Shown: positions 3,681-7,552 of the stretch, one piece after another
How the letters are laid out: every line of letters starts with the position of its first letter
How positions within the stretch are numbered: the first letter of the stretch is position 1
Assembly: GCF_000968015.1 (NCBI RefSeq)
Contig: NZ_LACH01000062.1
Span: 1 to 64,000 of the forward strand
Length of the DNA: 64,000 nt
From: Pseudomonas fluorescens
GTDB taxonomy: Bacteria > Pseudomonadota > Gammaproteobacteria > Pseudomonadales > Pseudomonadaceae
Reading direction: 5' to 3'
The notes under the pieces: generated by a model
What the model saw: only the letters and a program-made list of their open reading frames with translations
Databases searched by the model: none
Told to the model about the DNA's origin: nothing
Made by a program: the position numbers and the translations under genes

Positions 3681-5306
3681 TTAGAAACTGAACCGCTGCA
3701 GAATAACGCCCAGTCCGTCGGACATCGCCTTGAGTTCCTGGGTGGTTCGCACGATCCCGCTTTGGGCGGCGGCGTTTTCTTCCACGCTTTGCGCCACTCT
3801 TTCGACGTTGCAGGCGACTTGCTCACTGGCGGCGCGCTGTTCCTGCAACGACAACGAAATGAAGCTGACGGCCGCAAGGGATTCGTCCAGTGCACCCTTG
3901 ATCCTGCTCATGGAATCGCCTGCGCTTTCGACCAGTTTCTGGCCATGGGTCACGCGCTCGCAGCCTGCGGCCATGCTGTCTTTGGCTTTGACCATGCCGT
4001 TTTGGATGGCATTGACCAAGGCAACGATTTCCGTGGTGGATTGCGCTGTGCGGGCGGCCAGGCTGCGCACTTCATCGGCGACCACGGCGAAGCCACGACC
4101 TTGCTCGCCCGCGCGTGCCGCTTCGATGGCGGCATTGAGGGCCAGGAGATTGGTCTGTTCGGCGATGCCTCGAATTACCCCGACAATCAGGCTGATGTCG
4201 TTCGACTGAATCGCCAGTTGATCGATGTCCGATGAGCTCTGTGCAACCAGGTCGGCAATCTGTCCCATTTCCTGGATGGAGGCTTGCATCACCGCCATGC
4301 CTTCGCCAGTGATTTCGCCTGCCTTCTGCGCAGTGCTCTGGGCCTGTCGAGCATTGTCGGCGATGTGAGTGATGCTCACGGAAAGCTCTTCGACCGTGGC
4401 CGCCATGGAGGAGGCGGTCTCGCTTTGCAATGCGGCGCTGCTCAATCCCTGTTCGGAGGACGCAGACAATTGCAGCGTGGCTCCCTCGATCTGCTCGGAG
4501 GCCTGGCTGATCTTGCCAATCATGTCGCTCAGGCTGTGGCGCATGGTCTGGACGGAGTGCAGAACGCCGGTCGACGGCTGTTGCTGATCAAGCTGCGTTG
4601 CGGCCAGTTTTCCCTCGGCGATGTTCGAGCTGATGGCGGCCAGTTCTGCGGGTTCTGCGCCGAGCTGGCGGCCCAACAGCCTGGAGAAAAAGAACGTATA
4701 GGCGACGCCCGCGATCAGCGCCAATACCAGAATCAGCAGACTGGTTCTGAGGTTGGCGGTGTAGGCGATCTGGTTATGTTCGAACTGGTTCTTGGCTTCC
4801 ACCAGTTGAACCTCGATCAGTTCGGAAAATTTGTCTGACAAGGGGTCAATCAGCGGATACAACTGCTCGGTCGCGAAACGTGCAAGACCCGCGTCGTCGT
4901 TCTGGCGCAGCATGCCCTGCAAGTTTTGCAATGGCCCGCGGGTGGCTTCCATCAGTGGGTTGATCTGCACGATCAGGCGCGTTTCTGCCGGAATCAGTTG
5001 CGTTGATTTATACGCTTGCCACGTCTGGTCGATCTCTCGCTGGGCCTGCTCGATCCGACTCAGTGACTCAGCTTTGGTGAAGTTGCCATTGCGCGCCTTG
5101 TGGGTGGCATCGACGATGTTCACGGCGTACAGGTCGGCGATTTTTTTCAAGTCCCGCAAGGGCACGACTCGATCGAGATAGACGGTCTCCAGGCTGCGTA
5201 CCGCCGATTGCATACCAAAGAGTCCAAGTCCGCCGACACACAACAATCCGAGCAGTAACGCACTGGTGAGTAGAAGCAGATGAGTTCTGATTTTCCAGCT
5301 TTCCAT
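3681..5306 (-). CDS. Methyl-accepting chemotaxis protein (four-helix-bundle sensor type)
   Basis: 541 residues. TM1 lies at about residues 10-32, followed by a roughly 150-residue helical periplasmic domain of the 4HB_MCP type. TM2 lies at about 187-210, then a HAMP segment and the cytoplasmic signalling domain. The hairpin tip reads [20 protein letters not shown], the strongly conserved core of these receptors. Heptad-rich glutamine/glutamate/alanine helices flank the tip and would carry the methylation sites. The ligand cannot be inferred. The gene stands alone, and no che genes are in the window. Confidence 0.95.
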
Positions 5307-5791
5307 AGTCCGTAATTCCTAGATCATTCTATTCAGGTGGGCAATCGAGAGGGCAGAGTCTGTGACTTCAGTGCGCAGTGAAGGCACATTGGCATCATGT
5401 TCTGTATGGACGAAAAAAGCCGCTGCGTTACCGGCGTGTATTTACGAATTTGCGACGTTCGATCATTGCCAGGATTCTGCCGAGTCACTGACATTGAGCC
5501 GCTGAACTGAAAAAACCGGATCCTGTTTAGATCGATTATTTCTTTCGGTTATTTATATAGCTGTTGTTTGCATATCCATTACCTATAAAGCCGCGTCATG
5601 GCTGTGCAGGTATTCGTGATAACAGCGGCTTGTTCGTTGTAGCAGCCATTGTTGCCCTGAAGGCCGCACTAGGGCGGTTTCAGCATCCAATTTTGCTGCT
5701 CGGTCATCATCTTGTCGCCTCTGCGTCAGTCCTTAGAATCGGCTCCATCAGCTTCGTCCAACTATTTAATGATTCAAGGAGCAACACCAAG
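5307..5791. other. Intergenic region upstream of the Met-rich gene
   Basis: About 485 bp between the divergent chemotaxis receptor and the Met-rich gene. It contains an AT-rich block around 5530-5575 (TTATTTATATAG) that could hold a promoter, but I see no convincing -35/-10 pair. An in-frame upstream extension of the Met-rich gene exists here but has an ordinary composition and no ribosome site, so I do not treat it as coding. Confidence 0.5.
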
Positions 5792-6298
5792 ATGAATGCC
5801 ATGCCCATGCAAATGCCGATGAACACCACCCTGCCAATGATGCCGATGATGGGCATGCCGATGATGATGGCGACCATGACCTGCGAAATGATGGACGACG
5901 GCATGATGTGCAAGATGATGCCGGCGGCGGGCATGGACATGGCCATGTTCAAGAACAGCGCTGAAATGATGCAGATGATGATGAACTGCGGCATGCCGAT
6001 GATGATGCATTGCGGCAACATGAGCATGATGTGTATGTCCCAGGCGAGCATGGCCATGCCGATGATGAGCACCATGATGCCAATGCCGATGATGGGCATG
6101 CCGATGCCATCGATGAAGTGCGTGATGGAATGCACGTTGATGGCCGACTGCATGATGTGCAAAATCATGCCGATGGCGGGCATGAACATGGACATGATGA
6201 AAAACTGCTGCACCCTGATGATGAAAATGATGAACGACTGCAGCATGCCGATGATGATGAGCTGCAATGGCATGCCGCTGATGTGCTGCACCTGCTGA
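5792..6298 (+). CDS. Methionine/cysteine-rich protein of unknown function, tandem-duplicated
   Basis: 168 residues, of which I count 68 Met and 16 Cys, exactly half of the protein. The start is fixed by AAGGAG at 5776-5781, 10 nt before ATG 5792, and the compositional bias begins at that ATG. A rho-independent terminator follows 18 bp after the stop. The protein is two copies of an approximately 83-residue unit. Each unit has an MPMMGMP lead, a Cys, the core MMCK(M/I)MPxAGM(D/N)M, a K-N pair, then MPMMM(H/S)C and a final MxxMC. No signal peptide or membrane helix is seen, so it is probably cytoplasmic. Met/Cys clustering of this kind can bind Cu(I) or similar soft metals, or scavenge oxidants as Met-rich MrpX does. 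Both are inference, and I do not recognise a family. Confidence 0.8.
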   Translation: MNAMPMQMPMNTTLPMMPMMGMPMMMATMTCEMMDDGMMCKMMPAAGMDMAMFKNSAEMMQMMMNCGMPMMMHCGNMSMMCMSQASMAMPMMSTMMPMPMMGMPMPSMKCVMECTLMADCMMCKIMPMAGMNMDMMKNCCTLMMKMMNDCSMPMMMSCNGMPLMCCTC

Positions 6299-6310
6299 TC
6301 CCTGAAGCAT

Positions 6311-6348
6311 AAAAAAGCCCCCGCGGTCATACAGCCGCGGGGGCTTTT
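6311..6348 (+). terminator. Rho-independent terminator of the Met-rich gene
   Basis: A ten-base-pair stem, GCCCCCGCGG (6317-6326) with CCGCGGGGGC (6335-6344), an 8-nt loop, then TTTT. It is preceded by AAAAAA and may therefore also work in reverse for the minus strand. Confidence 0.92.
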
Positions 6349-6388
6349 GCATTCCAGCAAACACCACAGATCCCCGTGAAGAAGAGAT

Positions 6389-6498
6389 CCCTGTGGGAGC
6401 GAGCTTGCTCGCGATAGCGGTGTGTCAGTCAATGAATATGTTGAATGTTAAGCCGCTATCGTCGGAACGCCGCCCGGAGCAAGCTCGCTCCCACAGGG
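6389..6498. repeat. REPIN with variant right arm
   Basis: The left arm is CTGTGGGAGCGAGCTTGCTC. The right arm ends AGCAAGCTCGCTCCCACAGG. Next to the right arm the usual CGCG is replaced by TCGGAACGCCGCCCGG, the same replacement found in the REPIN at 49078-49183. It lies between the Met-rich gene and the XRE regulator gene. Confidence 0.85.
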
Positions 6499-6506
6499 GA
6501 TGTGGT

Positions 6507-7154
6507 TCAGTCCAGGCGTTCCGGGTACGTCACCACCAGATAGGCCACCGCCTCACTGTCGGCCGGGTTGCGGTAGCGGTGGGGCTGGTCGGCATAGAAC
6601 AGGATCGAGTCTCCGGTGGAGAGCAAGTAGCGTTCATCGTTGACACTGATTTCCAGCACGCCCTGCGACACCACCAGGTTTTCCTGCACGCCGGGGCCAT
6701 GGCCCTCGGAGACGTCTTCGCCTAGCGGGCTCAGGCGCAGTTCGTAAAACTCCGATTGGCGCGCTACGTCGAACGGGAACAGCGCGCGGCTGACAAAGGC
6801 GCCGCTGGCACTGACCAGGCGTTTGCTCTGGCTGGCCGACAGCACCGCCACGCCTTCGAAGGCCCGGTGCTCAAGAAACGCGGCCACCGACACCTTCAAG
6901 CCCTTGGCAATTTTGCACAGCACCTTGATCGACGGCACGCTGCGCCCGGATTCGATCTGCGCCAGCATGGCCCGGCTGACACCACACTGTCGGGCGAGGG
7001 CGTCGAGGGACAGATGACGCTTGCCGCGCAGACGTTGCAGGTTCTGTGCGACCCGTTCGCAGATCGGGTCTTCTCCCAGTGGTTGCAGGTTATTCAAATC
7101 CAGCACGGGCTCGTCGGCGCTCGCCAGAAAGCGCGAGGGTTGCTGCGCGTTCAT
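6507..7154 (-). CDS. XRE-family regulator with C-terminal cupin domain
   Basis: 215 residues. The helix-turn-helix domain covers residues about 30-90 (LSLDALARQCGVSRAMLAQIESGRS is the core; quoted only for orientation). The cupin fold at about 140-210 includes the ISVNDERYLLSTGDSILF turn. This is the PuuR/SutR-like architecture of one-component repressors sensing small metabolites. Its ATG overlaps the stop of a 53-residue upstream frame (ATGA, 7151-7154), which suggests translational coupling. It is divergent from the sigma-54-type operon beginning at 7606 and is a candidate regulator of it, although sigma-54 promoters also need an AAA+ activator that is not present here. Confidence 0.92.
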   Translation of the reverse strand: MNAQQPSRFLASADEPVLDLNNLQPLGEDPICERVAQNLQRLRGKRHLSLDALARQCGVSRAMLAQIESGRSVPSIKVLCKIAKGLKVSVAAFLEHRAFEGVAVLSASQSKRLVSASGAFVSRALFPFDVARQSEFYELRLSPLGEDVSEGHGPGVQENLVVSQGVLEISVNDERYLLSTGDSILFYADQPHRYRNPADSEAVAYLVVTYPERLD

Positions 7155-7312
7155 GCGTGACGCGTCTCGGTGGCTTTAGCGGCTTGCACCCACTGAAAAG
7201 CCTGTAAACCTGCATTGCGTGCATACATTTCCCACATGGCCCGCGCCCGTTGCTGAGCCTGTTTGCGTTTGCGGTAGCTGGCGAAGTCGATGAGGTTGTC
7301 AGTCGGATTCAT
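7151..7312 (-). CDS. Small basic hypothetical protein coupled to the XRE regulator
   Basis: 53 residues starting MNPTDNLIDFASYRKRKQ. Longer in-frame upstream sequence exists, but its composition is not protein-like, so I take the ATG at 7312. The stop overlaps the start of the XRE regulator by ATGA. The protein is rich in Arg/Lys/Gln and Ala and predicted helical, with no signal or membrane segment. Its function is unknown. It may serve mainly to couple translation. Confidence 0.55.
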   Translation of the reverse strand: MNPTDNLIDFASYRKRKQAQQRARAMWEMYARNAGLQAFQWVQAAKATETRHA

Positions 7313-7552
7313 GGGGCACTTCACTGTGGTGATGAATGACGGGATGAGCTGAGAGTACGCGGATATTTTTATAACGATAAATACTGATTTTGTATTTATT
7401 AATGCCTTTTGGTTCTTATTAAAGCGACGTATCCACTCAAGTGAACGCAAGTGTTGGTGAGGCAACAGGGTTTAGGCAGGCTGTGCTCAAGCGATACAGG
7501 GGGCTGGATCGATAGCTTCATTTAACACATTGATAAATAAGTAATTAGTGGC

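Follow-up and report, generated by a model that had tools for sequence, protein, structure and literature searches.

The locus

The window analysed here is a stretch of 64,000 nucleotides of Pseudomonas fluorescens DNA, and its relevant features are listed in Table 1. It carries a gene for a protein very rich in methionine and cysteine, referred to below as the Met/Cys-rich protein, together with a convergent gene for an XRE-cupin transcriptional regulator and an ORF of 53 amino acids. The Met/Cys-rich protein is one half of a regulated module with these two partners, and the module is new here; the XRE-cupin partnership was absent from the initial annotation, which had been made from the sequence alone. 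The coordinates that it gave for the Met/Cys-rich gene, the length of the product and the counts of Met and Cys residues are exact, and the consensus Shine-Dalgarno sequence that it described is present.

Table 1. Features of the Met/Cys-rich gene and its surroundings; positions are those of the window.
Feature	Position	Strand	Evidence and remarks
Far-upstream element, TTAGA...ATATCCAT	5527..5579	+	Inner spacing fixed; ends 131 bases before the -35 box
Conserved promoter, CTTGTC, 17 bp, TAGAAT	5711..5739	+	CTTGNN-17-TAGAAT in 102/106 distinct upstream stretches
Antisense His-rich ORF, 197 aa	5774-6367	-	Open over the whole Met/Cys-rich gene
Shine-Dalgarno sequence, AAGGAG	5776-5781	+	10 bases before the start; similar purine-rich stretches in most relatives
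Met/Cys-rich protein gene	5792..6298	+	168 aa, 68 Met, 16 Cys
Unit 1, residues ~26-86	5867..6049	+	Half-versus-half alignment; predicted beta-beta-alpha-beta-beta, block pLDDT 62-86
Unit 2, residues ~107-168	6110..6295	+	Half-versus-half alignment; same predicted elements, additional Cys, CCTC tail; block pLDDT from 86 to 46 at the end
Hairpin with A-run and T-run	6307..6350	.	-31.7 kcal/mol, z -5.8; after the stop of the Met/Cys-rich gene
XRE-cupin transcriptional regulator (HTH_3 + Cupin_2), convergent partner	6507..7154	-	Pfam; co-occurrence; synteny; match to 1Y9Q
53-aa ORF	7151..7312	-	Overlaps the regulator start by ATGA; on 120/128 loci
AT-rich operator-like element before the 53-aa ORF/regulator operon	7369..7404	-	Conserved; palindrome in the window, ATAAATAC-N7-GTATTTAT

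A conserved protein gene

The Met/Cys-rich gene is a genuine, conserved protein gene under purifying selection. The annotated frame has a median dN/dS of 0.22 (800 sampled pairs, of which 799 were usable, among 105 distinct relatives) and 0.26 when all Met codons are left out (399 of 400 pairs usable), against 1.04 in the antisense codon-on-codon frame (673 usable pairs) and 0.67 to 1.20 in the other four frames (300 pairs). The low value in the sense frame relative to the other five gives independent support for its status as a protein gene. An initial proposal was that failing conservation of the Met and Cys positions among homologues would mark the protein as an artefact; in the 105 distinct proteins these are the least variable columns, with a mean probability that two sequences differ of 0.099 in the 66 Met-majority columns and 0.063 in the 16 Cys columns, compared with 0.23 in the remaining 75.

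That the gene is a low-complexity artefact, or the antisense of a real minus-strand gene, is therefore hardly credible. The antisense frame is indeed open across the whole gene, and a similar antisense ORF is found on 110/110 loci, but the ORF is His-rich (ATG gives CAT when complemented), Pfam has no match for it, and its substitution pattern is without purifying selection, whereas the ribosome-binding site, promoter and stop of the sense gene are conserved.

Within the genus, the Met/Cys-rich protein is present in 92 of 398 genomes. Relatives occur in 38 of 298 genomes of the family, from 3 of its 19 genera, and among 369 genomes of the class the window's own genome is the sole carrier. A species-level collection gave 127 loci, of which 80 were kept (79 from Pseudomonas and one from a 'gamma proteobacterium'), and plasmid records gave no match to the protein. 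The carriers include P. protegens and P. chlororaphis (loci L060 and L058). The two genome collections partly overlap, so that the 128 loci used below are not independent; the distinct proteins number 90 and 105. Loci L045, L046 and L063, whose starts lie outside the start pattern, were omitted from the 90-protein table, and these three and L153 were omitted from the 105-protein counts. In the L153 copy (genome G320) a frame break separates the two units, although each half can still be recognised; this is possibly decay or an assembly error.

Composition, duplication and predicted structure

Met and Cys together make up 50% of the 168-residue product, or 84 sulfur atoms per 168 residues, and Met alone about 40%. 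The 105 distinct homologues keep to narrow ranges (59-75 Met, 13-17 Cys, 159-174 residues), and in them Met accounts for 93% of all M/L/I/V/F/W/Y residues, a share that looks as if Met content itself were selected. Of the 16 Cys-majority columns, 13 reach an identity of 99% or more; the Cys pair 139-140 is nearly invariant, and so is the CCTC tail. The variance of total Met was 3.7 against an expected 4.5 over ungapped columns and 9.0 against 7.1 over all columns, and this comparison does not clearly point to a constant total of Met among the 105 homologues.

The tandem duplication claimed at the outset was borne out. Aligning one half of the window protein with the other gives a score of 208, compared with a mean of 50.5 (sd 13.0, maximum 92) for 500 shuffles of the second half and a mean of 77.5 (sd 14.5, maximum 132) for 500 shuffles in which every Met was kept in place. 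Since the score far exceeds even the Met-fixed shuffles, the duplication reflects more than common Met content.

No signal peptide is visible by inspection in the window protein or in 105 distinct relatives, in agreement with the initial annotation: the first Lys/Arg of the window protein does not come before residue 41, and none of the relatives (0/105) has Lys or Arg within its first 28 residues, i.e. there is no charged N-region. We infer that the Met/Cys-rich protein is cytosolic.

The window protein matches no Pfam or NCBIfam family above cut-off (one Pfam listing, at E 2.1, is far below it), the best E value in a Pfam scan of 30 family members was 0.27, and no PDB sequence matched at E up to 10. 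An AlphaFold2 model from 78 aligned sequences has a mean pLDDT of 64.7 and a pTM of 0.59. For each unit it predicts a helix preceded and followed by two strands, with block confidences of about 58 to 86, and pLDDT falls below 50 at residues 1-23, 89-106 and 161-168; a first model, built from 30 sequences, has these elements too. Foldseek with that first model found nothing at E of 0.001 or below, and a fold search with the second model found nothing at Z of 5 or above (best 4.5). The fold searches neither prove a new fold nor support a known one. This medium-confidence model suggests that the Met/Cys-rich protein is probably a folded protein of two beta-beta-alpha-beta-beta units.

The XRE-cupin regulator and the module

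The partner has the domains of an XRE-cupin regulator, an XRE-type helix-turn-helix with a cupin domain (HTH_3 at 50.5 bits, cut-off 23; Cupin_2 at 43.9 bits, cut-off 27.2), and, as in an XRE-cupin local functional unit, it forms a conserved pair with a neighbouring gene. Across the 398 genomes of the genus, 92 carry the Met/Cys-rich protein, 92 the regulator, 90 both and 304 neither, where the regulator was counted as a close relative at E up to 1e-70, a threshold set in this analysis. Fisher's test gives 1e-84; this value takes no account of the kinship of the genomes, and the exceptions and the synteny therefore weigh more.

The exceptions are few. The protein occurs without the regulator in G206, an assembly of about 1150 contigs with the gene at a contig start, and in G379, an unexplained exception. 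The regulator occurs without the protein in G272, with about 1200 contigs and the gene at a contig start, and in G183, where the regulator has an internal stop. Among the 90 double carriers, the regulator has an internal stop in G318 and the protein gene is broken in G320. We note that the stop inside the G183 regulator goes with a genome in which no Met/Cys-rich gene was found, as if the halves of the module decay together.

On 122 of the 128 loci the regulator is present, on the opposite strand and facing the protein every time, at a median distance of 633 bases from the protein start and up to 5.2 kb (the distance at L153 is unreliable). Of the six loci without it, L006, L052 and L061 end within 250 bases, and L035, L082 and L141 span at least 5 kb. 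The 53-aa ORF that accompanies the regulator has no Pfam match. The other neighbours in the window are rarely kept on the 128 loci (a chemotaxis receptor on 5, a universal stress protein on 1, a ligase on 5 and two transport genes on 16 and 4), and other flanking families each reach at most 31 of 110 loci. Sulfur genes are not among the conserved neighbours. Judged by the frequency of flanking families and not by gene names, the conserved neighbours are the XRE-cupin gene and the 53-aa ORF only, with no Msr or sigma-factor gene among them.

Regulatory sequences

The promoter and regulator-residue counts come from a run in which row L169, a wrong-frame reading, was ignored. Farther upstream, the far-upstream element was recovered as blocks in 88 of 90 upstream stretches (L008 and L028 missed the pattern), and its inner spacing is constant in 87 of the 88 blocks measured. 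It also occurs in relatives from two other genera, and it precedes the Met/Cys-rich gene in all seven genomes searched (7/7). In the window's own genome one extra match appears at two mismatches, as does one match to a reversed control pattern, and a stricter pattern finds the known site only. This conserved element is probably regulatory.

The operator-like element before the 53-aa ORF is less symmetric in other clades than in the window, and at up to three mismatches it has one match each in five of the seven genomes and none in two. Since each of the two elements is essentially single-site in the seven genomes, the motifs point to no wider regulon. Compared matrix against matrix, the operator-like and far-upstream elements resemble each other about as much as expected by chance (53 of 1000 column shuffles were as good); the modal placement recurs on 56 loci against a maximum of 54 in 100 shuffles, and the mean best score lies within the shuffle range. 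An operator common to the regulator and the Met/Cys-rich gene is suggestive at most, and direct action of the regulator on the Met/Cys-rich gene is put forward as a proposal.

The strong hairpin after the stop of the Met/Cys-rich gene is a probable bidirectional terminator. The gene had been credited with a terminator of its own; a terminator is indeed likely, but because the hairpin lies between two convergent genes it is probably common to both. The further statement that the ribosome-binding site and terminator show expression was overstated, as such signals do not show it. Between the Met/Cys-rich gene and the regulator, an inverted repeat (GTGGGAGCGAGCTTGCTCGC...) spans 6389-6499, which resembles a Pseudomonas REP element. 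A search for RNA families in 5300-6510 gave nothing above the gathering score.

Control by CysB or sulfur starvation was considered and rejected. The far-upstream matrix was run over six stretches of the window's own genome, namely two above the alkanesulfonate-monooxygenase cut-off, two weaker monooxygenase-like ones below it and two sulfate-binding-protein loci, and the best score reached in them was -0.2, whereas the lowest-scoring of the 88 members had 18.4. No published CysB consensus was found in the open-licence literature. At L125, upstream of a sulfate-binding protein gene, an AT-rich promoter was seen by eye to have a short pattern in common with the far-upstream element of the window; this likeness was dropped because other clades lack the corresponding part of the element. 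The small gene before the sulfate-binding protein gene at L125 resembles oscA.

A lead to the ligand

Among solved structures, the regulator matches PDB 1Y9Q best (E 5e-24, 88 bits), over residues 33-213 of the regulator's 215 and at 37% identity. In the reverse search of the window's own genome, the best match of the 1Y9Q fragment is the regulator of the module at 87.5 bits, with the next at 51.4, and 59 of the 173 fragment residues are common to more than 90% of 103 module regulators, including the D-Q-P-H-x-Y motif (DQPHxY). 1Y9Q is an XRE-cupin protein of Vibrio cholerae, reported with D-methionine in the cupin pocket; it is one of few solved full-length XRE-cupins and has also served as the modelling template for others (PMC7901475). 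The same source describes the XRE-cupins of P. aeruginosa as mostly repressing neighbouring genes as local units, with PauR as one that has scattered targets, and the known XRE-cupin signals as metabolites of the regulated pathway (PMC7901475). The partnership points to a small metabolite, perhaps methionine, as the controlling signal. The ligand in 1Y9Q may be incidental.

Function of the Met/Cys-rich protein

A regulator whose relative is a methionine-bound sensor, near-inseparable from a protein with 40% Met, suggests a response of that protein to methionine, as a sink or a reserve. The reading that we tentatively favour is a cytosolic sink or reserve of reduced sulfur, held as Met and Cys, under XRE-cupin control with a methionine-like signal. 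In the course that we infer, from cytosolic location and fold through repression and ligand to storage and release, the XRE-cupin protein would repress the Met/Cys-rich gene and possibly its own operon too. Binding in the cupin of a ligand like methionine (the D or L form, or a derivative) would relieve the repression, surplus Met and Cys would then be deposited in the Met/Cys-rich protein as a compact reserve or sink, and proteolysis could later release them. A specific form of this, somewhat more doubtful, is a folded store with Met at nearly every large hydrophobic place, made when methionine, perhaps D-methionine, is sensed, and analogous to cyanophycin. Cyanophycin stores nitrogen. Against a reserve, the positional conservation of Met and Cys is stronger than a pure store would need, total Met is not visibly constant, no sulfur-gene companion is conserved, and the far-upstream element is absent near the six sulfur-gene loci.

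The two roles first suggested for the protein, soft-metal storage and an oxidant buffer, are both possible, and neither gained specific support here. As a buffer of soft metals, the protein would hold several Cu(I), Ag(I) or similar ions on ordered Cys and Met ligands in the cytosol, in the manner of the copper storage proteins. The supply of 16 Cys and 68 Met would suit this, and fixed Cys fit metal buffering well, as the Cys columns are the most conserved and the Cys pair and the Cys tail hardly vary. We nevertheless consider a metal buffer rather unlikely: there is no Pfam, NCBIfam or PDB sequence match, the medium-confidence model shows beta-beta-alpha-beta-beta units and not a four-helix bundle, and the conserved neighbours, by frequency of flanking families and not by metal-gene names, are the module genes only. 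The promoter spacer of MerR/CueR is 19-20 bp, and the spacer conserved here, at 17 bp, also speaks against it. Still less probable is a sacrificial scavenger whose Met and Cys would react with HOCl or peroxide and be restored by Msr enzymes and thioredoxin, as a cytosolic version of MrpX. The extreme Met content fits such a role, and the methionine-rich MrpX is a known oxidant sink (PMC8550376), but no signal peptide is seen by inspection, the frequent neighbours (again not sought by Msr-gene names) are those of the module only, and the positional constraint is strong and the Cys many. A specific structural or regulatory role, with Met as a by-product of an unusual core, would account for the near-perfect co-occurrence and the high positional conservation; the protein might, for instance, respond to redox state or to a ligand as a partner of the XRE-cupin regulator. 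We regard such a role as improbable, since so large a Met share among the large hydrophobic residues makes little sense if Met itself is of no importance.

Sulfur amino acids come at a high cost, and the usual accounts of Met-rich proteins, as metal ligands or oxidant sinks, are post hoc. Here a family that has no Pfam or NCBIfam model and is half Met and Cys, with a near-inseparable regulator in many Pseudomonas species, makes it possible to ask by clean genetics why a cell builds a protein packed with these residues. If the favoured reading of a sulfur amino acid reserve is true, bacteria would have a dedicated Met/Cys store with its own sensor, of which we found no example in the accessible portions of the open-licence literature. 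The module is a hint of a dedicated sulfur amino acid stock under control, or of a sulfur-based sponge, in some bacteria. It may also be a case in nature of a protein whose core is almost entirely methionine, and it gives a starting point for finding what an uncharacterised XRE-cupin responds to.

Comparison with known systems

No paper on the Met/Cys-rich protein of the window was found in the open-licence literature. One paper gives about 170 database sequences with more than 20% Met and tables seven proteins (PMC3514235); the family described here may be among the 170, and so may already have been noticed there. The nearest of the tabled proteins, compared by composition alone, is MRP1 (FeNos), a hypothetical protein of Nostoc sp. 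PCC 73102 with 41 Met (33%) and 15 Cys (12%), which was used as a reagent for work on Met oxidation (PMC3514235, Table 1). The profile of the window family finds nothing outside the host family in 369 class genomes, among which there is no cyanobacterium. The other Met-rich proteins in that table are natural, with 21-25% Met, and include the maize seed storage protein DZS18; they have 0-4 Cys, DZS18 and the protein of P. putida W619 included, compared with 16 in the window protein. By its composition (32 Met, 21%; 1 Cys; PMC3514235) the W619 protein is not a member of the window family.

The analogy with MrpX drawn in the initial annotation proved weak. The two proteins, set side by side by description only, are both small and Met-rich. 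MrpX is encoded with Msr and a sigma/anti-sigma pair, and neither Msr nor a sigma factor is a conserved neighbour of the Met/Cys-rich gene. Unlike MrpX of Azospira, a periplasmic oxidant sink that works with methionine sulfoxide reductase (PMC8550376), the window protein shows no sign of export by inspection, is rich in Cys, consists of two units and is paired with an XRE-cupin regulator. With the Csp3 copper storage proteins it shares a small size, many Cys and, probably, a cytosolic location. The Csps are four-helix bundles organised as tetramers (PMC7558416), whereas the window protein is predicted to form beta-beta-alpha-beta-beta twice and has Met as the dominant residue.

The module as a whole is closest in plan to the local functional units of XRE-cupins described in Pseudomonas, in which an XRE-cupin gene with HTH_3 and Cupin_2 domains is likewise paired with a conserved neighbour (PMC7901475). 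The neighbours in those units are mostly enzymes or transporters, whereas the neighbour here is the convergent gene for a Met/Cys-rich protein.
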